From a virus, in IMG/VR virus record IMGVR_UViG_3300008954_002609, positions 40,468-104,467 of that record: DNA of 64,000 nucleotides. One strand, given 5' to 3'. The notes below the pieces were generated by a model. That model saw only the letters and a list, made by a program, of their open reading frames with translations, made no database searches and was not told the DNA's origin. Made by a program: the position numbers and the translations under genes. Of the stretch, positions 41,180-63,523 are shown piece by piece. Numbering within the stretch: the stretch's first letter is position 1; the number at the start of each line of letters is the position of its first letter.

Positions 41180-42805
41180 TTATTTTCTCCTCTTGACCAA
41201 GAGACCTTGCTCATAAAAATATAAATAATCTATTTCTGTGCCCAAGTAGCAGTTTATAGCGTGCTCTGGGGTTTCGCAAATAGGCTCCCTGTCATTAAAA
41301 CTTGTATTAAGTAGGATTGGAACCCCACTCTTATCATACCATTTTTTGATAAAATTGTAATACCATTTATTATCATTTTCTGTAACGGTCTGAAGTCTTG
41401 CTGATCCGTCGAAATGAACTACAGCTGGGACCTTGTCCCTCTTTTCTTTTTTAAATTTTAATACGAAACTCATGTATGGGCTGTCTTTCTCCTTTTCAAA
41501 CCAGTTAACGGCTTCCTCTCTTAGGATAGATGGTGCAAAAGGGCGGAACCATTGCCTATGCTTGACCTTATCATTGATAATTCCCTTCATGTCTTCGCTT
41601 CTAGGGTCTGCGAGAATACTTCTGTTTCCCAGAGCACGTCGGCCGGATTCGGAGCCTCCCCCAAAGACGGCTACTATTTTTTGATCATCGAGAAGATCCA
41701 CTACGTCCTCATCAGTAACTTTGCTGTACTCTATCTCCTTATTTCTATCCTCTAGTGTCTTCTCGACTAGGTCAGAGTGGTCACAGCCAAGATATGGGGT
41801 GTAATTGTCTTCCCATATTATTCTCGGATTATCAAGTATCTGGTGCCATAAAAACTGTGCAGAACCCAAGGTAAGACCACCATCATGAGGGGTCGGTGTT
41901 ACATAAACGTTTTTATCAGGGAACCAATCCAAAATCTTCCCCATTGCTACAGAGTTCAAAGAGACGCCGCCAGCAAAGCAGATATTCTTATGTTGGGGGT
42001 GCTTCTCCAAGAACATAGTTAACAACTCCCTAAGATATGTTTCAGTTGCCATTTGTAGACCTGCTGCTAGGTCGAATTGTTCCTGCTCTCCCTTTTTCGC
42101 TATATCCGCCCATCGCCATAAGTATGGGTGCCTAGGGTCGGTTCCGACATTAGCACCGCGTGGCTGACCTGGTGGCTTGAATGAAACCGCAGCTGAGTCC
42201 TTCCTGAACATCTTCAAAAAATCTGAAAAATATTTCTTTCCATCTCCCATGCAAGCCATAGCCATAACAGACCCAGCCTGGTGACCTCTTGGCCACCCAG
42301 ACTGCAATCCAAAGACGTACCTTGTTACTCTAGTCCATACACCTCCGATGTTTACGTCAGTAATTGGAAAAGCATGTACTGGTGATATTTTATTATCTTT
42401 TCCCTCCCAGACTGTGAACGCTGTTATGTTACCGCCCTCTGACTCAAAGCCTCCTCCGTCCATTGTAAAAATTAATGCGTCTTCATGATTGCTGGAAAAG
42501 AATGCATTCGCGGCATGTGCCTGGTGGTGACCAATCGCATACATCTGTCCCCCATTTCTCTCAATGATATCCCTTAATTTATTAAGTGAGTCGGGATGAT
42601 CACTTAACTTAGAAAAAGAATAATTGGTCGCAAAGTATTTAATATCTTGATGAGCAAGATATTCATCGAACATAAATTGAACTCCATCTCCTGCTGGCTC
42701 CTTTTCTCTTATATATCTCTCGTATTCTGCATGTACTATCGGTATTCCGTTGTCCAATATACAAAATGAACAATCATGACCTGACCATGCGCTAGCTACT
42801 TTCAT
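41180..42805 (-). CDS. Carbamoyltransferase, NodU/CmcH/TobZ family
   Basis: A 541-residue protein with both family domains. N-terminal Kae1-like: GHDCSFCILDNG, the metal motif HHQAHA (residues 93-98), MDGGG (115-119) and FAGGVSLNS (277-285). C-terminal YrdC-like part: FGGGSESGRRALGNRSILAD (381-400, ATP/carbamoyl site), WFRPFAPSIL, and LNTSFNDREPI. The enzymes carbamoylate sugar hydroxyls (nodulation factors, antibiotics) via carbamoyladenylate. Length is typical. An AGGAG site precedes ATG 42805, which overlaps the upstream stop (ATGA). In the glycan cluster a carbamoylated sugar is expected; DNA base modification is a less likely role. Confidence 0.93.
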   Translation of the reverse strand: MKVASAWSGHDCSFCILDNGIPIVHAEYERYIREKEPAGDGVQFMFDEYLAHQDIKYFATNYSFSKLSDHPDSLNKLRDIIERNGGQMYAIGHHQAHAANAFFSSNHEDALIFTMDGGGFESEGGNITAFTVWEGKDNKISPVHAFPITDVNIGGVWTRVTRYVFGLQSGWPRGHQAGSVMAMACMGDGKKYFSDFLKMFRKDSAAVSFKPPGQPRGANVGTDPRHPYLWRWADIAKKGEQEQFDLAAGLQMATETYLRELLTMFLEKHPQHKNICFAGGVSLNSVAMGKILDWFPDKNVYVTPTPHDGGLTLGSAQFLWHQILDNPRIIWEDNYTPYLGCDHSDLVEKTLEDRNKEIEYSKVTDEDVVDLLDDQKIVAVFGGGSESGRRALGNRSILADPRSEDMKGIINDKVKHRQWFRPFAPSILREEAVNWFEKEKDSPYMSFVLKFKKEKRDKVPAVVHFDGSARLQTVTENDNKWYYNFIKKWYDKSGVPILLNTSFNDREPICETPEHAINCYLGTEIDYLYFYEQGLLVKRRK

Positions 42806-53614: not shown

Positions 53615-54955
53615 TTATAAAATTTTTGCTGCCACGGAAGCCACCTTAGACCTCTCTCCCTTTAACAAGGTTATGTGACCTGCTATATCTTGATCTTTAA
53701 ACTTTTCTACGACATAAGAGAGACCGTTGTTTGTTCCATCTATATAAACGTTATCTATTTGCTCTATATCTCCAGTAAGAACTATTTTTGTCCCTTCTCC
53801 GACTCTTGTCAGTACCGTCTTTATTTCATGTCTGTTCATGTTTTGAGCCTCATCAATAATTATAAACGCATTTGAAATCGATCGACCTCTTATATATGTC
53901 ATTGCCTCGACCTCTATTCGCCCCTCTTCAATGTGCATCTCTAGAGTCATCTTATCATTTCCGAAGAGAAATTGTAAATTATCTTGTATAGGTGCAAGCC
54001 AAGGCATCATTTTTTCTTCCATTGACCCAGGTAAGAAGCCTATATCTTTTCCGACGGGCTCGACTGGTTTTGTAACCACTATCTTGTTGTAAACCCTATC
54101 GTTGGCAGTTTCTCCAAAAGTTTGTTGAAGTGCAGATGCTAATGCCAACAGAGTCTTGCCTGAGCCGGCTTTACCAATTAAAGACACTACCGGAACCGAT
54201 GGGTCCATTAAGAGATCAGCTGCGAATGTTTGCTCCTTATTTCTAGGCTTCAATCCCCAGATAAACTTCTTACTTTGTCTGACTTTCTTGAGTGGTTCCC
54301 TGTAATTTAAAAACCTTACAAGTGACGCTTTTTTATCATTCGTATTAGACACAAGCATTATAAATTGGTTTTGATTTACCCTTACGTCTTCCTCTTCGAG
54401 ATAGAATGGAATATCGTTGTAAACATCATCAATGACTTGATCATCTACCAAGTGAGTCATGAATCCGGTATATAAACCGCTAACGTCCTCAACCACTTGT
54501 TCTAGATTATAGTCTTCACATTCTAATCCAAGAGAGTCACACTTGACTCTCATGTTTATATCACGAGAAACTACTATAACCTCTGAATCTTCATTATTAT
54601 TCTTTTCAGTCAACGCTGTAGCAATAATCTGGTTGTCTGGGTTGTCTAAATCCAAATCGTCAGGTAGTACGAAGGGGTCATAACTCTTAGCATAGACCAT
54701 GCCCTTAGCTTCTGAAATCTGAACGCCGTGATGCAGATTCCCATGTTCTCTTAGTTTGTCTAGTTTTCTTATTATGCTACGGGCGTGTGCGCCTACGGGA
54801 TCTTGTCTCTTCTTATGCTTATCAATCTCATCAAGAACCTTTAGTGGAATGACTATGTCTGATTCCCCGAAAGATTCTAAAGAATTTGCATCTGTTAAAT
54901 AAACATTGGTGTCGAGAACATAGATTTTTTTTGTTTTTGACAATTCGTCAGACAA
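53615..54955 (-). CDS. phoH: PIN-PhoH family ATPase
   Basis: A 446-residue protein with an N-terminal PIN domain (IYVLDTNVYLTD with Asp15; VIVVSRDINMRVK) and a C-terminal PhoH ATPase domain: Walker A GKAGSGKT (261-268), VTKPVEPVGKDIGFLPG, and Walker B FIIIDEAQNM. PhoH2-type proteins act as sequence-specific RNA helicase/RNases in bacteria, and PhoH genes are very common in marine phages. The start is TTG 54955, supported by AGGAAAGAGAG about eight bases upstream. Length fits the PIN-PhoH fusion exactly. Confidence 0.93.
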   Translation of the reverse strand: MSDELSKTKKIYVLDTNVYLTDANSLESFGESDIVIPLKVLDEIDKHKKRQDPVGAHARSIIRKLDKLREHGNLHHGVQISEAKGMVYAKSYDPFVLPDDLDLDNPDNQIIATALTEKNNNEDSEVIVVSRDINMRVKCDSLGLECEDYNLEQVVEDVSGLYTGFMTHLVDDQVIDDVYNDIPFYLEEEDVRVNQNQFIMLVSNTNDKKASLVRFLNYREPLKKVRQSKKFIWGLKPRNKEQTFAADLLMDPSVPVVSLIGKAGSGKTLLALASALQQTFGETANDRVYNKIVVTKPVEPVGKDIGFLPGSMEEKMMPWLAPIQDNLQFLFGNDKMTLEMHIEEGRIEVEAMTYIRGRSISNAFIIIDEAQNMNRHEIKTVLTRVGEGTKIVLTGDIEQIDNVYIDGTNNGLSYVVEKFKDQDIAGHITLLKGERSKVASVAAKIL

Positions 54956-55298: not shown

Positions 55299-56090
55299 AT
55301 GTTAAAGGTAATATTGTTAACAATAACGATGCTTATTTTATCGTGCCATTCCAGCGTAGGAGAAATCATAAAAACATCCAGAGCAGGGACAACGAAAACA
55401 AGCACCAAAAAGGAAATCCCCGTAAAGTCTTTCGCTAAAATAATAAAAACACTGCACGTAAAAAAGTGTAAAAAGATGAACATAACTCCATGCAAGGATG
55501 GAGACAAATTTACGTCTGTTGGGTCTGGGGTTTCCGTAGGCAAAACAAGTGGAGGATCATTGATTTTGACGGCTGGTCATGTGTGCACAATGCAGTTATC
55601 GGAAAACGCCAAAAGCCTTATGGAAGAGCATGAGATAATCATGGAAGCCATCAACATAAATAATGAAAAACGAAAAGCTATTATAATATCTTCAATTGTG
55701 GAACCAGATGGTGCTGATCTGTGCTTGTTGTTCGTGGAGGGTCTAGAAACAGAAGGAATACTACTATCTGATGAGGCTCCGAAAGTAGGTGACAAGGTAT
55801 ACAACATTGCTGCTCCTGCGGGGATATTTCATCCCCCGACCGTTCCAATAATGCATGGTATTTTCTCTGGTCCAGTAAATGATTCAAACGCAATGGTCAC
55901 TGTGCCAGCTATTGGAGGTAGTTCCGGTAGCGCAATAATAGACGAGGATATGAGACTTGTTGGAATATTATTTGCCACCCACCCAGGATTCAACACCATT
56001 ACTTTGTGTTCCACTTATGAGGTGATGGCCATTTTTCTAAACGAAGGTATAAAGAAGTTTCTCGCAATGAAACTTGGTTCTACGAATTAG
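55299..56090 (+). CDS. Secreted trypsin-like serine protease, lipoprotein
   Basis: A 263-residue protein, the only plus-strand gene. A signal peptide ends in the lipobox LILSC (Cys16), so it should be lipid-anchored in the envelope. The chymotrypsin/trypsin triad is complete: His94 in LTAGHVC, Asp140 in DGADLCLL, Ser209 in GGSSGSA, with the oxyanion region PAIGG. VGILFATHPG is the usual strand after the Ser. A cleavage-site-like basic region (residues 22-60) precedes the domain. Excellent AGGGGG ribosome site. It may act during infection on envelope proteins, in exclusion of other phages, or in release. Codon use seems like the neighbours. Confidence 0.85.
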   Translation: MLKVILLTITMLILSCHSSVGEIIKTSRAGTTKTSTKKEIPVKSFAKIIKTLHVKKCKKMNITPCKDGDKFTSVGSGVSVGKTSGGSLILTAGHVCTMQLSENAKSLMEEHEIIMEAININNEKRKAIIISSIVEPDGADLCLLFVEGLETEGILLSDEAPKVGDKVYNIAAPAGIFHPPTVPIMHGIFSGPVNDSNAMVTVPAIGGSSGSAIIDEDMRLVGILFATHPGFNTITLCSTYEVMAIFLNEGIKKFLAMKLGSTN

Positions 56091-56741: not shown

Positions 56742-57377
56742 TTAAATAATCTCATCAACAAGACCATATTCAAGACATTGATCAGCATCCCACCAAATGT
56801 CATGCTTTAAAATTTCATCCATCTTATCTTCTGGAATCTTCGTATACCTTCTGTAAATGTTTTTAATTTTCTTCATTAACATTTCTGAATTTTGCATATC
56901 ATCTTGCATGTCTTGAAACTTTCCCCACAAGTGTCCGGACAACTGGTGCACTAACATGCAAGCGTTTTTGTGCATATATCTTTTGGATCCCACCACACTC
57001 ATCAAAGTGGCAGCACTTGCCGCGCAGCCTTCTATTATTGTTTCCACCGGAACTTTCGAATTCAAGATATAATCCACAGCTGACAATCCTGCAAAAACGC
57101 TACCTCCATAGCTGTTTATGTGCAATCTAATTGAGTCTGTTTTTTCAGAGTTATAGGTGAATGCCCTAGTTGCAAGATTGTTTCCCATATTCATCATAGC
57201 TTTGTTCAGCTTTAAAATTTTTGGTCTATTAACAGAAGAATAAAAGAAAATATTATTACCAGAATATTCAACCACGTTGAAGTCATCGCCATCTCCATTT
57301 TCCTTTGGCGTGGCAACCTTTCTAGTCACTGTTACCGTGCCTACTTCTTCCTCTAAGCCCCATCTATAATCTTTCAT
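56742..57377 (-). CDS. ClpP-like serine protease
   Basis: A 211-residue peptidase S14 protein. INSYGGSVFAGLSAVD (residues 88-103) is the substrate-groove motif, Ser121 in GCAASAATLM the nucleophile, His144 in MLVHQLSG the base, and Asp193 in KHDIWWDADQ a likely third member, followed by EYGLVDEI. The N-terminal 40 residues differ from bacterial ClpP, including the part that contacts ClpX/ClpA. No ClpX gene is visible. It could make proteolytic chambers with host ATPases or serve in head maturation, as ClpP-like enzymes do in some phages. First gene after the tRNA. Confidence 0.88.
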   Translation of the reverse strand: MKDYRWGLEEEVGTVTVTRKVATPKENGDGDDFNVVEYSGNNIFFYSSVNRPKILKLNKAMMNMGNNLATRAFTYNSEKTDSIRLHINSYGGSVFAGLSAVDYILNSKVPVETIIEGCAASAATLMSVVGSKRYMHKNACMLVHQLSGHLWGKFQDMQDDMQNSEMLMKKIKNIYRRYTKIPEDKMDEILKHDIWWDADQCLEYGLVDEII

Positions 57378-57401
57378 ACACCTTCCTTTTAAAAAAAATA
57401 G

Positions 57402-57475
57402 TGGACCTCCTCGGACTTGAACCGAGAACCTGCCGGTTATGAGCCGGATGCTCTAACCTATTGAGCTAGAGGTCC
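57402..57475 (-). tRNA. tRNA with CAU anticodon, most likely tRNA-Ile2 (AUA-reading)
   Basis: A complete 74-nt cloverleaf: 7-bp acceptor (GGACCUC/GAGGUCC), D stem GCUC/GAGC, anticodon stem with loop CUCAUAA, T stem CUCGG/CCGAG with loop UUCAAGU, discriminator A73. CCA is not encoded. The pair 27-43 (U-C) is a mismatch. The CAU anticodon could mean Met or Ile2. Acceptor pairs C4-G69 and C5-G68 are the ones reported as positive identity elements for E. coli TilS, while elongator tRNA-Met has U4-A69 and A5-U68. With tilS 13 bases upstream, tRNA-Ile2 whose C34 becomes lysidine is the better reading. Confidence 0.9.
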
Positions 57476-57488
57476 AAATACATTATAC

Positions 57489-58100
57489 TCAATAATCTTT
57501 ATAAATTTCAATTAATTTTTTTCGAATCGTTGTTCGTATACCTGGATTAACTTTCAGAACTTGCGGCATAACATTATGTCTAATATGGTTTCTCATTAAA
57601 CTCTTTGTCATTCTGTTAGATGGATCTTCAATCCACTCTACTTCCTTTCTATTAGCATAATCAACAACTGACTTCTTGTCAGTCATGAGAAATGGTCTAT
57701 AAATGTTTACTCCCCTTTTGTGGGGGATCATTTTTGGATTACCATGAAAAGAAGAAAATAGCCAAGTCTCTACAACATCGTCCAAGTGGTGACAAGTAAT
57801 TATAAATTTACTATTTAAAGATTCTAAAAACCTATACCTCTCATCACGCCAAAACTCTTCCATGGACCTCCTGCCTTTGCTGCCCTTAACTCGCCCTACT
57901 GTCAGAATAAGATTGTTTTTTGCCGCATACTCTCGAACAAATTTCTCTGCTTCTTTGGAGTGACTTGTGTCATGGTTAAAGTAGGCTAAGTCCACTTTCC
58001 TTTTTCCATTTATAAGAAAGTCTGTCATTACCATAGAATCTATTCCCCCGGAACAAGCAATCGTAACCCTTCGAGGTATTTTTCCAATAATTCTTATCAT
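57489..58100 (-). CDS. tilS: tRNA(Ile)-lysidine synthase, short form
   Basis: A 203-residue PP-loop enzyme: SGGIDS (17-22) binds ATP; AYFNHDTSHSKEAEKF and TCHHLDDVVETWLF (102-115) are the conserved TilS segments; WIEDPSNRMTKSLMRNHIR (156-174) is highly specific for TilS. It changes C34 of tRNA-Ile(CAU) to lysidine so that it reads AUA and is charged with Ile. Bacterial TilS is 300-430 residues; here only the N-terminal catalytic domain is left, as in some short bacterial forms. It has its own sigma70-type promoter and is followed by the matching tRNA gene. Confidence 0.93.
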   Translation of the reverse strand: MIRIIGKIPRRVTIACSGGIDSMVMTDFLINGKRKVDLAYFNHDTSHSKEAEKFVREYAAKNNLILTVGRVKGSKGRRSMEEFWRDERYRFLESLNSKFIITCHHLDDVVETWLFSSFHGNPKMIPHKRGVNIYRPFLMTDKKSVVDYANRKEVEWIEDPSNRMTKSLMRNHIRHNVMPQVLKVNPGIRTTIRKKLIEIYKDY

Positions 58101-58156: not shown

Positions 58157-58164
58157 GTCTTTAT

Positions 58165-59877
58165 TTATCCGGATACACCAGAACCAGACAAAAATGTAAC
58201 TGTGAGAATATCATCTGAATCGAGAGATAAATCTTCATTCATAAATATCTTGATTTGATTCGACGTCCCGCTTCCACTATTGATTCTATAATCAGCATGT
58301 GGGGCACTGCTGCCTGTGGTGTTTGTGTCCCCTAGATCGTGTTCTCCGTGCAACAACACACCGTTTAAATAAACCATTAAAGTTCCAGACTGGGGCACTG
58401 CACCTAGAGATGCTGTTGTGTATGGTGTTGCCATGGCATGGGTTGCAAACATGCCCTTAGTTGGTACAGACCCGGATATGTTAGAACCATCAGCTCTCAC
58501 AAAAATCTTCTTTCTAAAGCCCACACTCAGGCGACCTCCACTGAATGATAGTCCTCCGTGAGCATCGGAATTATTTTGTACGATATTTTTATGAATATGT
58601 TCTTTTTTGATGAGGGTGTTGGGTCCTGAACCACTTATCTGTCCAAACACCTGTAACGTTTGAACGCTGATTCTACTACCTGAAATATGGCTCACAACAG
58701 ATTTATCAGCAGTTACGGTATGAGTAGTGACAGCAGATCCAGAAACAGTCCCTGCTGAAGTCACGCCGCCTGCTGTAACTGTACCCACTATACCAGCAGC
58801 GCCTGCAATAGACGCAGACATTGCACTAATGAGTGTATATCTCTTGGTTGCCGAACCTAGGGCCACTTTGTTGTCGTTCTGTGGTATTAAGTCTGTGGTC
58901 TGACCGCCCAAGAAAGATAAATCGTCAGTATTCGATGATCCCAAGATTACGCTATTTGAAGCAGTTATGCTACTGACCGCTATACCACCAAAGACACAAT
59001 CGTCCCCCGTTAAATCATGAAAATTTCCCGTTGCCCCAGACAAGATACCCCTGCTTGATAATATATGCGTTTCAACCTTCTGAGCCTGAAGTAATGAACC
59101 TGAAATAGACCCTGTAACTCCGAACCTCATTCCGGAAGTTCCAAGTATCGCTTGTGTTACTGATCCAGACTTAAAGCTTGCTCCGGCTTGGCCATCGACA
59201 TTCACTATTAGAGAGTCTCCTGTAAAAGTCCTAGATCCAAGAGTTAAAGACATTAGGGGACTAGATCCTGTTCCTTCAACCCCTGCAGTGCCTCCTAATT
59301 GAAATCCCGAACCAACAAAATCACCTGCACTTGAACCCGACACAGCTGCTATTATTAAGTTATCTTTTATCTCTAGAGAATCTTTTGTTACTGTTCTTGA
59401 TACTAATTCTTGTACTTCCAAAGACGTAATTTTTGCAAAAGACGCTGTTAAAGAAACAGTATTTATTTGATTGGACCCAACCCTATCCACATCAATGTAA
59501 TTAGAAGTCAAGGTTGATCCAGATATTCTATGAAAAGTGCCCAACGAACCTGAAAAAACATGTCCAAGATTAGTATTAAAATTTGAAGTTGAGCCAGATA
59601 TTTGATTTGTTATTATTCTATCTGCGTCAAAAAAATTAAATGTCCCGGTTGATCCTGAAATTTTGTGATACGTTGAATTTGAGCCGGAAATTATTCCGTA
59701 AGTAGCTAAGGATCCCGATATGATATCCAGATCGACGCCTCCGCCACCGCCAACGTCCAGAACGACGCGCCCTTCCGCATTGACTGCTAAGTAGCTTCCT
59801 TCTCCGGCGGCGGAACCAGAAGGAACAATGCCCCAGCCTATTTCACTTACGTGTACTTTTCTTTTAGTTCTTGCCAT
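58165..59877 (-). CDS. Fibre-like virion protein with ISGS repeats
   Basis: A 570-residue, Ser/Gly/Thr-rich protein beginning MARTKRKVHVSEIGWG. It carries many repeats of the form (I)SGS(L/N/T)xTxxxISGS, mainly residues 50-135 and later copies, as in trimeric beta-helical fibres, and an LGSATKRYTLISAMSASI segment like those of tail-fibre shaft proteins. The C-terminal 110 residues (GTLMVYLNGVLLHGEHD, IFMNEDLSLDSDDIL) form a likely knob or oligomerisation domain. No signal peptide. It overlaps the first leader-cassette gene by 14 bases. Confidence 0.78.
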   Translation of the reverse strand: MARTKRKVHVSEIGWGIVPSGSAAGEGSYLAVNAEGRVVLDVGGGGGVDLDIISGSLATYGIISGSNSTYHKISGSTGTFNFFDADRIITNQISGSTSNFNTNLGHVFSGSLGTFHRISGSTLTSNYIDVDRVGSNQINTVSLTASFAKITSLEVQELVSRTVTKDSLEIKDNLIIAAVSGSSAGDFVGSGFQLGGTAGVEGTGSSPLMSLTLGSRTFTGDSLIVNVDGQAGASFKSGSVTQAILGTSGMRFGVTGSISGSLLQAQKVETHILSSRGILSGATGNFHDLTGDDCVFGGIAVSSITASNSVILGSSNTDDLSFLGGQTTDLIPQNDNKVALGSATKRYTLISAMSASIAGAAGIVGTVTAGGVTSAGTVSGSAVTTHTVTADKSVVSHISGSRISVQTLQVFGQISGSGPNTLIKKEHIHKNIVQNNSDAHGGLSFSGGRLSVGFRKKIFVRADGSNISGSVPTKGMFATHAMATPYTTASLGAVPQSGTLMVYLNGVLLHGEHDLGDTNTTGSSAPHADYRINSGSGTSNQIKIFMNEDLSLDSDDILTVTFLSGSGVSG

Positions 59878-60394
59878 CCTGTATTAGCTCCAGAATTCTT
59901 TCTACATGACCTATAGCTTCTTTCAGGTCAAGTGCGTCATACCACGCCGAGGCGGTATTATCGCCAGTGTCAGGGGCGGCTGAATGTATCGTGTCTGCTG
60001 TTTCTATTTCATCTCTAGATTTGATAATATTCTTAATGTATGCTATTTTATTTTCTATTTCTTTTTTTGCCTCCGGAGTGACTCCTTTGTTGTTGATGGA
60101 GTCCTCCACGTCGTTGACAAAGAGTCCTAATTGTTTGCGTACATCTTTTCCCAAAGTTAAAGTAGGAAGGTTCAAAGGTCTATCTGACTTCTTAAAAATA
60201 TCTTTATCTTTTTGTAAAGCCTGCAAGGCAGATATCACATCTTGAGGATCTGCGTCAATTCTTCGGCTTTTCCTGCCCTTTACCATATCTGGGTAGTCGG
60301 GGTCTGGATTTGGCATTTCTTCAGGGCTAGATAGCTTTGGCATTGGCTTAAGCTTCTTTCTAAAGTCTCTCCAGTTTTCCATTATAAGTTTCAT
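59864..60394 (-). CDS. MKLIMENW-leader protein A
   Basis: A 176-residue protein beginning MKLIMENWRDFRKKL. After the leader come a Pro-rich charged linker (residues 16-45) and a helical domain (DPQDVISALQALQKDKD, TPEAKKEIENKIAYIKNII). No function is recognised. The start overlaps the stop of the PAP2 gene (ATGA). The leader is shared with four other complete genes and one broken copy nearby and resembles a T4 capsid-targeting sequence, so packaging in the head is a fair guess. Confidence 0.75.
   Translation of the reverse strand: MKLIMENWRDFRKKLKPMPKLSSPEEMPNPDPDYPDMVKGRKSRRIDADPQDVISALQALQKDKDIFKKSDRPLNLPTLTLGKDVRKQLGLFVNDVEDSINNKGVTPEAKKEIENKIAYIKNIIKSRDEIETADTIHSAAPDTGDNTASAWYDALDLKEAIGHVERILELIQDGKN
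60371..60394 (-). repeat. 24-bp leader repeat, copy 1 (five further copies)
   Basis: The DNA that codes for MKLIMENW is itself a near-identical 24-bp repeat. Copies end at 60394, 61077, 62008, 62742 and 63851 (copies 2, 4, 5 and 6 at 61054-61077, 61985-62008, 62719-62742 and 63828-63851), with a diverged copy near 61315-61344 that starts with GTG and has an insertion. Copies 1 and 6 are identical over all 24 bases. Such repeats can drive recombination that swaps coding modules behind one leader. Confidence 0.85.
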
Positions 60395-61077
60395 TGTCTC
60401 TTCTCCTGTAATTTTGGCAAAAAGTACTTTTTAGCTATATTTTTAGACTCTTTGTTATCGCTTGGGTAGTGTGCACCTCTAATTATCCTTGACTTTTCAA
60501 TTTTCTCTGCAATATCGAACAAATCTTCCTCACTATCAGGGTTTTCAGATGCAAAATAGTAGGCCAAAGTCCAAGCTTGTAGGGTATGACCACTAGGATA
60601 AGATGGTGTATCATCTGTCTCAGTCTTTATTGATCTTATATCATATCCAACTAAGTGACCCAACTGCTCAGGTCTAGGTCTTCCGTATCTCACTTTTAAC
60701 CTTAGAGCTATTATTGACACATCCCTCACTACATCTTTTATAAACTCTTTATCATATTCGATATCATTATCTTTCAAATATTTCGTAAACATATCTGTTG
60801 GCTTCTTATCAGCAGTTTCCAATTCTTTTTTACTAATATCTTTGTTATCGACCATGGTATCGAGAATGGTCTTAAGTTCCTTTTTCACTTCAGCACTATT
60901 GTTGGGTGGAAATTTTGTAATTGGAATCTCTGAGAGTGGGATGTCTATTATTTTCGGTTCTTCTGCAATTCTCTTTTTGTGCTTTTTGTTTTTTAATTCT
61001 CCGAACTTTAGATCTGCTATTTCTTGCTTTTTATTCTCTGTAAGAAATGAATTCCAATTTTCCATTATGAGCTTCAT
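60391..61077 (-). CDS. PAP2-type acid phosphatase with MKLIMENW leader
   Basis: A 228-residue protein with leader MKLIMENWNSFLTEN. All three PAP2/class A acid phosphatase motifs are exact: K-x6-RP (Lys128 to Arg135-Pro136), PSGH (161-164) and SR-x5-H-x3-D (Ser196, Arg197, His203, Asp207). The enzyme would remove phosphate from small molecules, lipids or proteins. Unlike membrane PAP2 it has no membrane helices and no export signal; the leader takes the N-terminus. A Lys-rich linker (28-40) joins leader and enzyme. FLTE in the leader matches the (L/I)xE cleavage pattern of T4 prohead protease. Confidence 0.88.
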   Translation of the reverse strand: MKLIMENWNSFLTENKKQEIADLKFGELKNKKHKKRIAEEPKIIDIPLSEIPITKFPPNNSAEVKKELKTILDTMVDNKDISKKELETADKKPTDMFTKYLKDNDIEYDKEFIKDVVRDVSIIALRLKVRYGRPRPEQLGHLVGYDIRSIKTETDDTPSYPSGHTLQAWTLAYYFASENPDSEEDLFDIAEKIEKSRIIRGAHYPSDNKESKNIAKKYFLPKLQEKRQ

Positions 61078-61080
61078 ATT

Positions 61081-61344
61081 TTAAAATTGTTCATCATCGT
61101 CGATAGTTAGGTGGTTTCTGATTGCCTCCAAATCTTCGTCATACGGGTCCCACCCTTCTCCTGTTTCGTCAAAGCTTTGATCGTACACTCCTACGACCAA
61201 ATCTCGAAAATTTTCAGGAGACATAGACAGAACATCCTCGGGTGGCATAATATCCTTTATTCTCATTGCTATCCTTGAAGATAGGTCAGTATCTTCTTCT
61301 TTTATAAAGTTATTCCAATTTTCCATTATCAAATCAATCTTCAC
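61081..61344 (-). CDS. LIMENW-leader protein B (small, acidic)
   Basis: An 87-residue protein beginning MKIDLIMENWNNFIKEED, a variant of the shared leader with two extra residues. The start is GTG 61344; a TTG at the Leu of LIMENW is another option. FIKE fits the (L/I)xE pattern. The rest is acidic and helical (RIAMRIKDIMPPEDVL, ENFRDLVVGVYDQSF). No function recognised. It overlaps the end of the upstream gene by 11 bases. Confidence 0.72.
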   Translation of the reverse strand: MKIDLIMENWNNFIKEEDTDLSSRIAMRIKDIMPPEDVLSMSPENFRDLVVGVYDQSFDETGEGWDPYDEDLEAIRNHLTIDDDEQF

Positions 61345-61663
61345 TAGAATCTTCCCCCTCTAATAGCCCTTGATCTCTTGCTATTTCTGCTTCTAAATAA
61401 TGTTTTACCATCCCTAAATAATCCGCAGCTTTTGTTATCTTGGACTCGACCCATTCAGGCAAGTTTGTTTCATCTTCGAACATTTGTGTTAATTCTGCAG
61501 CATAATTTGATGCCTTAAATAACTGTGATCTAGCCATTGACCCCTCCCTGTTGTGTTTTTCTAGGTCTGGCTCATACGTTGGGGCAGGGAGGCAGCCGCC
61601 TTCTGCTACTTTATCTAATTCTTCTCTAATTAGCTTTTTAATTTCCTTAGTCGTTATATCCAA
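61334..61663 (-). CDS. Small phage protein with ITTKEIKKLIREEL leader
   Basis: A 109-residue protein with another leader type, MDITTKEIKKLIREELDKV, of a kind that recurs at the N-termini of many proteins in marine phages. The remainder (EGSMARSQLFKASNYAAELTQMF; WVESKITKAADYLGMVKHYLE) is a widespread helical domain of large phages, often of unknown function and seen in structural genes. LIRE provides an (I)xE site. It sits inside the leader cassette, so it may be packaged too. Confidence 0.72.
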   Translation of the reverse strand: MDITTKEIKKLIREELDKVAEGGCLPAPTYEPDLEKHNREGSMARSQLFKASNYAAELTQMFEDETNLPEWVESKITKAADYLGMVKHYLEAEIARDQGLLEGEDSSED

Positions 61664-61681
61664 AACATTTCTCCTGTTCTC

Positions 61682-62008
61682 TTAATTCTTGCTGTTCCAC
61701 TGTCTGTAAAAGGATTTTTCGCCTTTCCCGATGTCGTCCAACCAAACTTGCGGGGGAACAAACCTGCCGTCGATATTTTTAAATTTTATTGCAAATTTCC
61801 AATATTTTCGTAAAAGGTTTGGTATCGGATCTCTCAAAAAGCCTTCTCCGTCTCTGTGTAAAATCTGATACGCTTCGTAATATTTTTCACGTAACATCCT
61901 ATCAAAAAGGCGGTCAATTCCCTTATCTGTAGGGGATGTGTCGCCCATACCAAGATTGAATTCTATTTCGTTTAGGTGTCTTCTCCAGCCTTCCATTATA
62001 AGTTTCAT
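61682..62008 (-). CDS. MKLIMEGW-leader protein C
   Basis: A 108-residue protein beginning MKLIMEGWRRHLNEIEF; Asn7 of the leader is Gly. HLNE is an (L/I)xE site. The rest (DRLFDRMLREKYYEAYQIL, KYWKFAIKFKNIDGRFVPP) is helical and basic with several Tyr and Trp residues. No function recognised. Its start overlaps the stop of protein D (ATGA), so the two are co-translated. Confidence 0.72.
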   Translation of the reverse strand: MKLIMEGWRRHLNEIEFNLGMGDTSPTDKGIDRLFDRMLREKYYEAYQILHRDGEGFLRDPIPNLLRKYWKFAIKFKNIDGRFVPPQVWLDDIGKGEKSFYRQWNSKN

Positions 62009-62742
62009 ATTCTTGCCCTTGATCCGTCTACTAACAGACTCTTTCCTAGTGAATTAAATTTCTCCAATGACTGAAAGGCTTCAGCGTCTCCGGATTTTCC
62101 TGCCTGAATTAGTTTTTGCATATAATCAAAAGCTCCGCGACTATATTTTCCTAAATCTTTAAGTTTTTCCGCGTCACCAGATTCATAGGCAGCGTCTAAA
62201 ACCTTAACTGCCTCTAGTACATCAACCTCAGACATGCCAGCATTTTGAGAATAAGTATCTAAGATACCCCTCATAACTAAGTATTTTTCTTTGCTTAATG
62301 ATTTTCCTCCGCCCACATCAATTGCCGCTTGGGCATCTCCAGAAGTTAAAATCATAATGCCAAACATAATAACCATAAAAGTAAGCACCATGCCTATTTT
62401 AAATAAAATAGGGTGACTACTCTTAAACTTTCCTAAAGCGCCCATCATCATATTTGCAGCTTTCTGTAAACCTTGGATACTCTTAGCTGCTATGTCCATC
62501 GCCTTTATGGAAAGTTTAAGAAAAAAATCATTTACCTTTACCATAGCCGCCTTTACTGCATCTGATATGTTATCTTTTATTTTAAGGGCACCTGTCTTTG
62601 TTTTCTCATATGCGCTTTTTACAAGATCAAACACGCCCTCGGATATTAACTTGTCCAACTCCTCGTTTAACACCCTCTCAAAGAGCATTAAAGGTTCCTG
62701 CTCTTCTTTATAGACGCGCCAATTTTCCATTATAAGCTTCAT
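62005..62742 (-). CDS. MKLIMENW-leader protein D with one membrane helix
   Basis: A 245-residue protein; ATG 62742 was chosen because it gives the shared leader MKLIMENWRVYKEE, while an upstream start would add only shadow sequence. Residues 35-105 are amphipathic helices; residues 112-132 (ILFKIGMVLTFMVIMFGIMIL) form one membrane helix; the C-terminal 105 residues are helical and Ala-rich. A capsid-packaged protein with a membrane helix could insert into the host membrane after delivery, but this is inference. LFE, LNE and ISE occur in the first 40 residues as (L/I)xE sites. Confidence 0.75.
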   Translation of the reverse strand: MKLIMENWRVYKEEQEPLMLFERVLNEELDKLISEGVFDLVKSAYEKTKTGALKIKDNISDAVKAAMVKVNDFFLKLSIKAMDIAAKSIQGLQKAANMMMGALGKFKSSHPILFKIGMVLTFMVIMFGIMILTSGDAQAAIDVGGGKSLSKEKYLVMRGILDTYSQNAGMSEVDVLEAVKVLDAAYESGDAEKLKDLGKYSRGAFDYMQKLIQAGKSGDAEAFQSLEKFNSLGKSLLVDGSRARI

Positions 62743-62761
62743 ATTAATAAATAGTATCCTA

Positions 62762-63052
62762 TTAACGAAACTGGAAACAAAAAGCAGCTCCAAAGAAATG
62801 GCTCGCGGTCCAATTGTGTTTTTTTGAATTTTCTAAATGGTAGTATGTCCTGTATCCTGCATTTTCGGATATTTTAAACTTCAAGCCAGCAATGAATGAG
62901 TTCTTTGAGAAAACATTATTCTCAAAAGTAATCTTCTCACCCACGAACACTTTCCCATATCCAACCTCCACCTTATTAGAAAACCAGATTTTGTCTTTGG
63001 CGATAGATTGTATGGGAAATAGAAGTATAAACATAAATAGAAGTATTTTCAT
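62762..63052 (-). CDS. Small exported beta-rich protein
   Basis: A 96-residue protein with a clear signal peptide (MKILLFMFILLFPIQSIA, cleavage after Ala18). The mature 78 residues alternate in beta-strand fashion (FSNKVEVGYGKVFVG, FIAGLKFKISENAGYRTYYHL, FFGAAFCFQFR) and end in aromatic-basic FQFR, reminiscent of outer-membrane beta-hairpins. AGGAT precedes the ATG. It may be inserted in the outer membrane or remain periplasmic, for example to block other phages. No family is recognised. Confidence 0.68.
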   Translation of the reverse strand: MKILLFMFILLFPIQSIAKDKIWFSNKVEVGYGKVFVGEKITFENNVFSKNSFIAGLKFKISENAGYRTYYHLENSKKHNWTASHFFGAAFCFQFR

Positions 63053-63127: not shown

Positions 63128-63523
63128 TCAAGGTGTTTTTTGCGAGAGGCTCTTGTTTTTATAATCTTTTATTGCTGATCTAATTGCATCTTCAGCTAAA
63201 ACAGAGCAGTGAATTTTTACAGGAGGGAGGGAGAGATGAGATGCAATATCTTTATTTTTAATTTCTTTTGCTTCTTCGAGACTTCTACCCTTTATCCACT
63301 CAGTAACAAGAGATGAAGAAGCTATTGCAGATCCACAACCATAGGTTTTAAATTTAGCATCCTGAATGATACCATCTTCATCTACTCTTATTTGGAGCTT
63401 CATAACGTCGCCGCAGGCAGGAGAGCCAACGATGCCGGTCCCAACAGAAACATCTTCTTTGTCTAGAGATCCCACGTTTCTGGGCTTCTCGAAATGATCC
63501 AAGACTTCTTTTGAGTATGACAT
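63128..63523 (-). CDS. iscU: Iron-sulfur cluster scaffold protein IscU
   Basis: A 131-residue IscU/NifU-N protein. The three cluster-ligand Cys are Cys37 (PACGDVMKL, with Asp39), Cys63 (TYGCGSAIASSS) and Cys106 (KIHCSVLAEDAI, with His105). LPPVK (99-103) is the motif bound by the HscA chaperone, so it should work with the host Isc system. The enzyme builds [2Fe-2S]/[4Fe-4S] clusters and passes them to target proteins. The sequence is complete and of usual length (about 128). A sigma70-like promoter with a very short leader stands before it. No other isc genes are in the window. Confidence 0.94.
   Translation of the reverse strand: MSYSKEVLDHFEKPRNVGSLDKEDVSVGTGIVGSPACGDVMKLQIRVDEDGIIQDAKFKTYGCGSAIASSSLVTEWIKGRSLEEAKEIKNKDIASHLSLPPVKIHCSVLAEDAIRSAIKDYKNKSLSQKTP

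Follow-up and report, generated by a model that had tools for sequence, protein, structure and literature searches.

A virus-only, catalytic-domain TilS beside a tRNA-Ile2 gene: a probable two-gene unit for AUA decoding in a T4-type phage

The 64,000-nucleotide stretch of viral DNA analyzed here (the window), which is part of a virus record of 104,467 bases, contains a gene for a tRNA lysidine synthetase (TilS) that has only the catalytic domain and, directly behind it, a gene for a CAU tRNA that classifies as tRNA-Ile2. We consider it likely that the two make up an AUA-decoding unit in which the phage TilS modifies the adjacent tRNA-Ile2 for reading AUA, and we regard the pair as a real and probably functional unit. 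The carrier is a marine-type virus that infects bacteria, and its record is, as judged from the genes, a large fragment of a T4-type myovirus, with the terminase, portal, capsid, and tail genes in the part that precedes the window. The terminase and capsid proteins are 36–46% identical to those of far-T4 phages of Microcystis, Flavobacterium, and Rhodothermus. We rejected naming a host by this route since relatives such as Microcystis phage Mel-JY01 and Flavobacterium phage immuto are, at such identities, too far off.

Transcription of the minus strand proceeds through a repetitive fiber-like gene (58165–59877), tilS (57489–58100, 203 residues), a spacer of 13 nt (57476–57488), the tRNA gene (57402–57475, 74 nt, CCA not encoded), the gene for a ClpP-like head maturation protease (56742–57377; PF00574, phrog_94), and then other phage genes. 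The first-pass annotation of this DNA had placed a CAU tRNA 13 bases behind a tilS gene, and both the spacing and the identity of the gene hold up. The ClpP-like protease, whose synteny is kept in 15/16 relatives, is a conserved neighbor that lies outside the AUA unit. Further along is a trypsin-like protease gene (55299–56090) on the plus strand, opposite to its neighbors, whose position between tilS and phoH is kept among relatives, and then the gene for a PIN-PhoH fusion protein (53615–54955, minus strand). The minus strand also carries genes for a NifU-like Fe-S scaffold (63128–63523), which is conserved near tilS in relatives, and for a Nol-like carbamoyltransferase (41180–42805). Five ORFs within 59864–62793 (minus strand), at 59864, 60391, 61081, 61682, and 62005, have in common an N-terminal signature, MKLIMENW with slight variations, the one at 62005 following an internal Met; it looks like a shared targeting or packaging signal. 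An ATAAATA element at 58161–58171 (minus strand), which overlaps the stop codon of the fiber gene upstream of tilS, is similar to the T4-type late promoter (TATAAATA) and is a candidate only.

The 203-residue protein matches TIGR02432, an equivalog-level model of the N-terminal domain of tRNA lysidine(34) synthetase, over the full model (1–189) at 121 bits (cut-off 93.6), and also PF01171; the TtcA and ThiI models gave matches only far below their cut-offs. Its best solved relative is the TilS of A. aeolicus (AaTilS, 1wy5, E 8e-27), and an AF2 model built from an alignment of 60 phage sequences has a mean pLDDT of 95.4 and the predicted fold of the TilS catalytic domain. With this model as the query, the top Foldseek match is AaTilS (2e21, E 7e-16, TM 0.83 by query length), and the top five are all TilS structures (E 7e-16 to 3e-12), with that of E. 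coli in fifth place; TtuA thiolases share the fold but rank well behind. Among the 60 phage sequences the PP-loop SGGxDS residues (S17, G18, G19, D21, and S22) are invariant, and so are D108, E111, and R174, which align with D137, E140, and R205 of AaTilS, residues that we take to be lysine contacts. Where dS could be computed, the dN/dS of phage tilS is 0.04–0.13, indicating strong purifying selection.

What sets the phage protein apart is where it ends. Bacterial TilS is either of type I, with CTD1 and CTD2, or of type II, with CTD1 (PMC12514573), and the phage sequence, which stops after the catalytic domain and has neither CTD1 nor CTD2, is of neither type. All 74 distinct phage TilS sequences examined are 189–214 residues long, and the alignment with the 317-residue type II enzyme of A. 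aeolicus stops at residue 226 of the latter. In a scan of bacterial genomes, intact TilS measured 276–502 residues, mostly 309 or about 440. The few odd calls of 21–221 residues include one of 221 residues that is probably a broken gene and two, of 21 and 24 residues, from Gracilibacteria, which use another genetic code. In a tree of 152 sequences, a single branch (99% support) separates the phage forms from all others, and the NTD-only TilS forms one virus-only clade. It is widespread, with ten IMG/VR relatives in a first scan and 80 of 531 confirmed candidate stretches in a profile scan.

The tRNA gene was reported by ARAGORN at 57401–57475 (minus strand) with the anticodon CAT and the label "tRNA-Met", which the program prints for every CAU tRNA. 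The Rfam tRNA model (RF00005) matches 57402–57475 with 68.3 bits (E 9e-13), and the fold has a z-score of -4.5. Its sequence, 5'-GGACCTCTAGCTCAATAGGTTAGAGCATCCGGCTCATAACCGGCAGGTTCTCGGTTCAAGTCCGAGGAGGTCCA, provides the pairs G1-C72, A3-U70, C4-G69, C5-G68, U12-A23, and C29-G41, an anticodon stem UCCGG/CCGGC, an anticodon loop CUCAUAA, and A37, A38, and A73; no other tRNA was detected in the 104-kb record. For classification we used a log-odds score trained on bacterial CAU tRNAs from several phyla, which in 28/30 genomes with at least two matches split by the presence or absence of C4-G69 and C5-G68; positions 4, 5, 68, and 69 were ignored by the score to avoid circularity, and leave-one-out recovered 63/64 labels. 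The window tRNA scores +15.5 for Ile2, compared with +17.1 for E. coli ileX and -8.4 for E. coli metT, while bacterial Met tRNAs range from -34.6 to -5.0 and 16 distinct relatives of the window's clade from +12 to +22. Because of this score and of A73, A37, A38, U12-A23, and C29-G41, we assign the CAU gene to tRNA-Ile2 and not to tRNA-Met, the class that had been named beforehand as the one that would speak against the unit. It has neither the non-CC pairs at 4-69 and 5-68 nor the Met-like body of an elongator tRNA-Met. An initiator tRNA-fMet has a 1-72 mismatch and three G-C pairs with G29–G31, and the window tRNA, with G1-C72 paired and its UCCGG/CCGGC stem, does not conform to that pattern either.

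The acceptor stem requires a separate comment. C4-G69 and C5-G68 are both kept in 16/17 members of the window's clade, the remaining one having U5-G68, and in distant tilS-linked tRNAs the CUCAUAA loop is always kept while C4-G69 often becomes A-U, U-A, or G-C, which rules out acceptor recognition of the E. coli type as a universal rule. In type I TilS it is CTD2 that contacts the acceptor stem and reads these two pairs (PMC12514573), and since the phage protein is without this domain, the E. coli recognition scheme cannot apply to it. The earlier argument from these pairs therefore survives in part, in that they mark the tRNA as Ile2, but it fails as an account of how the phage TilS would recognize it. 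In the window's clade they may serve IleRS or the host TilS instead.

The arrangement of the two genes is not a matter of chance, as a CAU tRNA is kept 9–25 nt downstream of tilS in 17/17 distinct members of the window's clade (support 100/99). Most of them keep the order tilS-tRNA-ClpP-PhoH, but ClpP lies anywhere between about 0.1 and 0.7 kb from tilS, and hence the tight spacing is specific to tilS and the tRNA. In the wider family, 28/74 distinct loci have a CAU tRNA within 100 nt of tilS, downstream of the gene in 23 and upstream in 5; the linkage is seen repeatedly in divergent lineages, on one side of the gene or the other. At loci with several tRNAs, the CAU tRNA is the one nearest to tilS in 16/24, where 5.4 would be expected from the tRNA content. 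A related clade, with 18 TilS sequences, has tilS and no tRNA detected, including six contigs of 47–95 kb with none; these contigs may be incomplete, and unless the missing parts hold the tRNA, the substrate of some phage TilS must be a host tRNA, or their role a different one. Among sampled bacterial tilS loci only 5/74 have a CAU tRNA nearby, antisense and 0.3–2 kb away. We rejected a bacterial origin of the pair because these five are antisense and have acceptor stems with G/A-4, which makes them Met-like. 

Most relatives have a sigma-70-like promoter at the end of tilS, ending about 6–12 nt before the tRNA. In the window it reads TTGAAA, 18 nt, TATAAT (11/12; 57482–57511, minus strand), overlaps the end of tilS, and leaves 6 nt between the end of the -10 box and the tRNA. 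With AT-matched positions its chance occurrence is about 0.03 per relative, and the -35 box lies inside conserved, constrained codons; the predicted promoter, which would allow separate synthesis of the tRNA, is only suggestive. In another phage group a tRNA-Leu(UAA) lies directly downstream of tilS, replacing the CAU tRNA or beside it (L063:10636-10722, L090:10636-10722, L300, L302, L307, and L082), with a gap of 7–14 nt in L063, L090, and L082. Some relatives have tmRNA genes (L007:5485-5788, L008:2224-2534, and L009:3273-3577, with tag peptides ANDDIEAMGEVALAA, ANDDVENFEDFALAA, and ANNDIEVEDFALAA, respectively); none was found in the window record.

As the first-pass annotation had noted, AUA is common in the genes of this phage and occurs at codons 2 and 8 of tilS itself. 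It is the commonest Ile codon, at 48% of Ile codons in the record and 32 per 1000 codons, where 42% would be expected from A at fourfold sites, so that the excess is modest (+0.06). A comparison with the AUA frequency of candidate hosts had been suggested; set against sampled bacterial loci, the phage value of 0.48 exceeds those of all 71, which reach at most 0.415 even at a GC content below 30% and have a median of 0.21 at 38–46% GC. AUA sites in homologous proteins (1439 sites) align with I at 0.40, V at 0.20, L at 0.17, and M at 0.04, the same profile as AUU and unlike that of AUG (M 0.41), and because of this likeness we conclude from the alignments that AUA is read as isoleucine and not as methionine. 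A high AUA load by itself does not require TilS, however, as our scan found no tilS in three T4-like phages with AUA/Ile of 0.41–0.45, among them Mel-JY01 (0.45) and immuto (0.44). The idea that a high AUA content sets phages with tilS apart was rejected, as Mel-JY01, immuto, and HTVC008M are all high.

Five sampled tilS phages, of three types, have CAU tRNAs with long, Leu/Ser-like variable arms. Recoding of AUA to Leu or Ser in these phages was considered and rejected, as their AUA sites align with I/V/L like AUU (74 sites). Such class II CAU tRNAs (L047:9899-9984, L085:10034-10121, and L061:7205-7288; also L046, L057, L287-L291, and L293) adjoin a phage tilS or sit within about 1 kb of it, and they have conserved acceptor and T arms but differ in the D and variable arms between phages with 95–96% identical TilS proteins; as AUA aligns with Ile there, they may be class II tRNA-Ile2. 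One of these contigs also has a suppressor-like tRNA called as Pyl/CUA (L085:11882-11957). The archaeal agmatidine synthetase for tRNA-Ile2 is TiaS, and in immuto, a far-T4 phage without tilS, a 105-residue protein (L282:7262-7576) is annotated as such, doubtfully, being far below the expected length.

The claim that the phage supplies both an AUA-reading tRNA and the enzyme that would switch its identity is thus supported at the level of sequence, by the class of the tRNA, the identity of the TilS, and the reading of AUA as isoleucine. What we infer beyond this, from catalysis and substrate choice to charging and benefit in the host, can be put as follows. A tRNA-Ile2 transcript with a CAU anticodon would arise from the region right behind tilS, and the phage TilS, a PP-loop catalytic domain alone, would use ATP to activate C34 and attach lysine. 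Lysidine is a determinant for IleRS and an antideterminant for MetRS (PMC9976931), and the tRNA with lysidine at position 34 would be rejected by MetRS and charged by the host IleRS, with AUA then decoded as isoleucine. The unit would aid translation of the AUA-rich phage genes in a host that is likely poor in this tRNA or in which its supply falls during infection, and a TilS of its own would guard the phage against a build-up of unmodified CAU tRNA, otherwise charged with methionine. As CTD1 and CTD2 make the tRNA contacts in known TilS, their absence means that the activity and specificity of the phage enzyme are not assured. Moreover, a vibriophage tRNA-Ile2 is modified by the host TilS, according to work cited in PMC13191261, and hence a phage does not strictly need an enzyme of its own. 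We tentatively suggest, as an idea that has perhaps one chance in three of being right, that the minimal virus-only TilS recognizes its partner by a new route, for instance with a C-terminal helix specific to the phages or by way of the anticodon stem-loop, and that the two are inherited together as an AUA-decoding pair that is partly orthogonal; if so, related phages could use tRNA bodies with long variable arms as tRNA-Ile2.

Other explanations must be set against the two-gene unit. The phage TilS could mainly boost or maintain the host tRNA-Ile2 pool, with the host TilS also modifying the phage tRNA and the adjacency reflecting a shared translation cassette. The 18-sequence clade with no detectable tRNA is in line with this, as are the C4-G69 and C5-G68 pairs of the window tRNA, which suit a type I TilS of the host (PMC12514573), and the T4-like phages that commonly have tRNA-Ile2 without a phage TilS (PMC1524935). 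However, the 9–25 nt linkage is invariant in the window's clade though the spacing of neighbors varies, and it reappears, before or behind tilS, in divergent lineages, and we consider this explanation unlikely. We are similarly doubtful that the unit makes up for the loss or cleavage of the host's tRNA-Ile2 or TilS in infection, by shut-off or an anticodon-nuclease defense, with AUA frequency being secondary: the high AUA load is already a sufficient reason for the pair, although the tRNA-Ile2 is the sole tRNA of the record and a vibriophage is described, via PMC13191261, in which host tRNA degradation occurs together with a phage tRNA bearing k2C34. 

It is hardly credible that the CAU gene encodes a plain tRNA-Met, elongator or initiator, and that the PP-loop protein does another job such as tRNA thiolation. 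This reading would agree with the ARAGORN label and with the existence of TtuA-type thiolases of the same fold, but it conflicts with an Ile2 score of +15.5 where Met tRNAs lie between -34.6 and -5.0, with a match to the TilS equivalog model where TtcA and ThiI stay below cut-off, and with a structural ranking led by TilS with TtuA well behind; the initiator variant is contradicted by G1-C72.

The most interesting part of the proposed AUA-decoding unit is the minimal enzyme. TilS sets the identity of a CAU tRNA as Met or Ile, and its selectivity has been credited to the very C-terminal domains that are absent in the phage family. With a natural TilS of 200 residues and its adjoining cognate tRNA, the smallest unit that sets AUA decoding becomes directly testable, and so compact a pair is also a possible tool for codon engineering. 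A phage tRNA carried with an identity-giving enzyme goes past tRNA abundance, the usual explanation for phage tRNAs, and the virus probably comes fully equipped to read AUA, a codon that it uses heavily.

Phage TilS and phage tRNA-Ile2 were each already known separately; in the literature searched, which included few subscription papers and no preprints, neither the adjacent tilS/tRNA-Ile2 pair nor a family of NTD-only TilS was found described. T4-like phages have a tRNA-Ile2 (PMC1524935) which, as here, has a CAU anticodon, is of the Ile type, and serves AUA, but no phage TilS was described with it. The same anticodon and codon apply to the vibriophage tRNA-Ile2, in which k2C34 was measured and host enzymes are thought to make the modification, as cited in PMC13191261. 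For chloroviruses, as for the phage studied here, a viral TilS has been proposed to overcome a host bias against AUA (PMC7589089), but these are viruses of algae, the proposed action is on tRNA-Met, and no adjacent tRNA-Ile2 was described. Group A pelagimyophages (PMC7029224) are, like the window phage, T4-like myoviruses, there marine, with an annotated TilS, which receives a single-sentence mention without tRNA pairing or domain analysis, and the TilS annotated in RsoM2USA is longer, at 349 residues (PMC8504454). The bacterial enzymes of type I (E. coli and G. kaustophilus) and type II (A. aeolicus and M. smegmatis) differ from the phage TilS in having CTD1, with CTD2 in addition in type I, and share with it the NTD, the SGGxDS motif, and the active-site residues. 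TilS was reported as new in phages for the Pseudomonas jumbo phage MIJ3, without discussion of a tRNA partner or of missing C-terminal domains (PMC6892783). Unlike in the window, the TilS genes of MIJ3 and PA5oct have no adjoining tRNA-Ile2, and in PA5oct three CAU tRNAs are clustered about 7–10 kb from tilS; like the window's enzyme, their TilS is a 203-residue protein of the virus-only clade, and the two are 44.5% identical.
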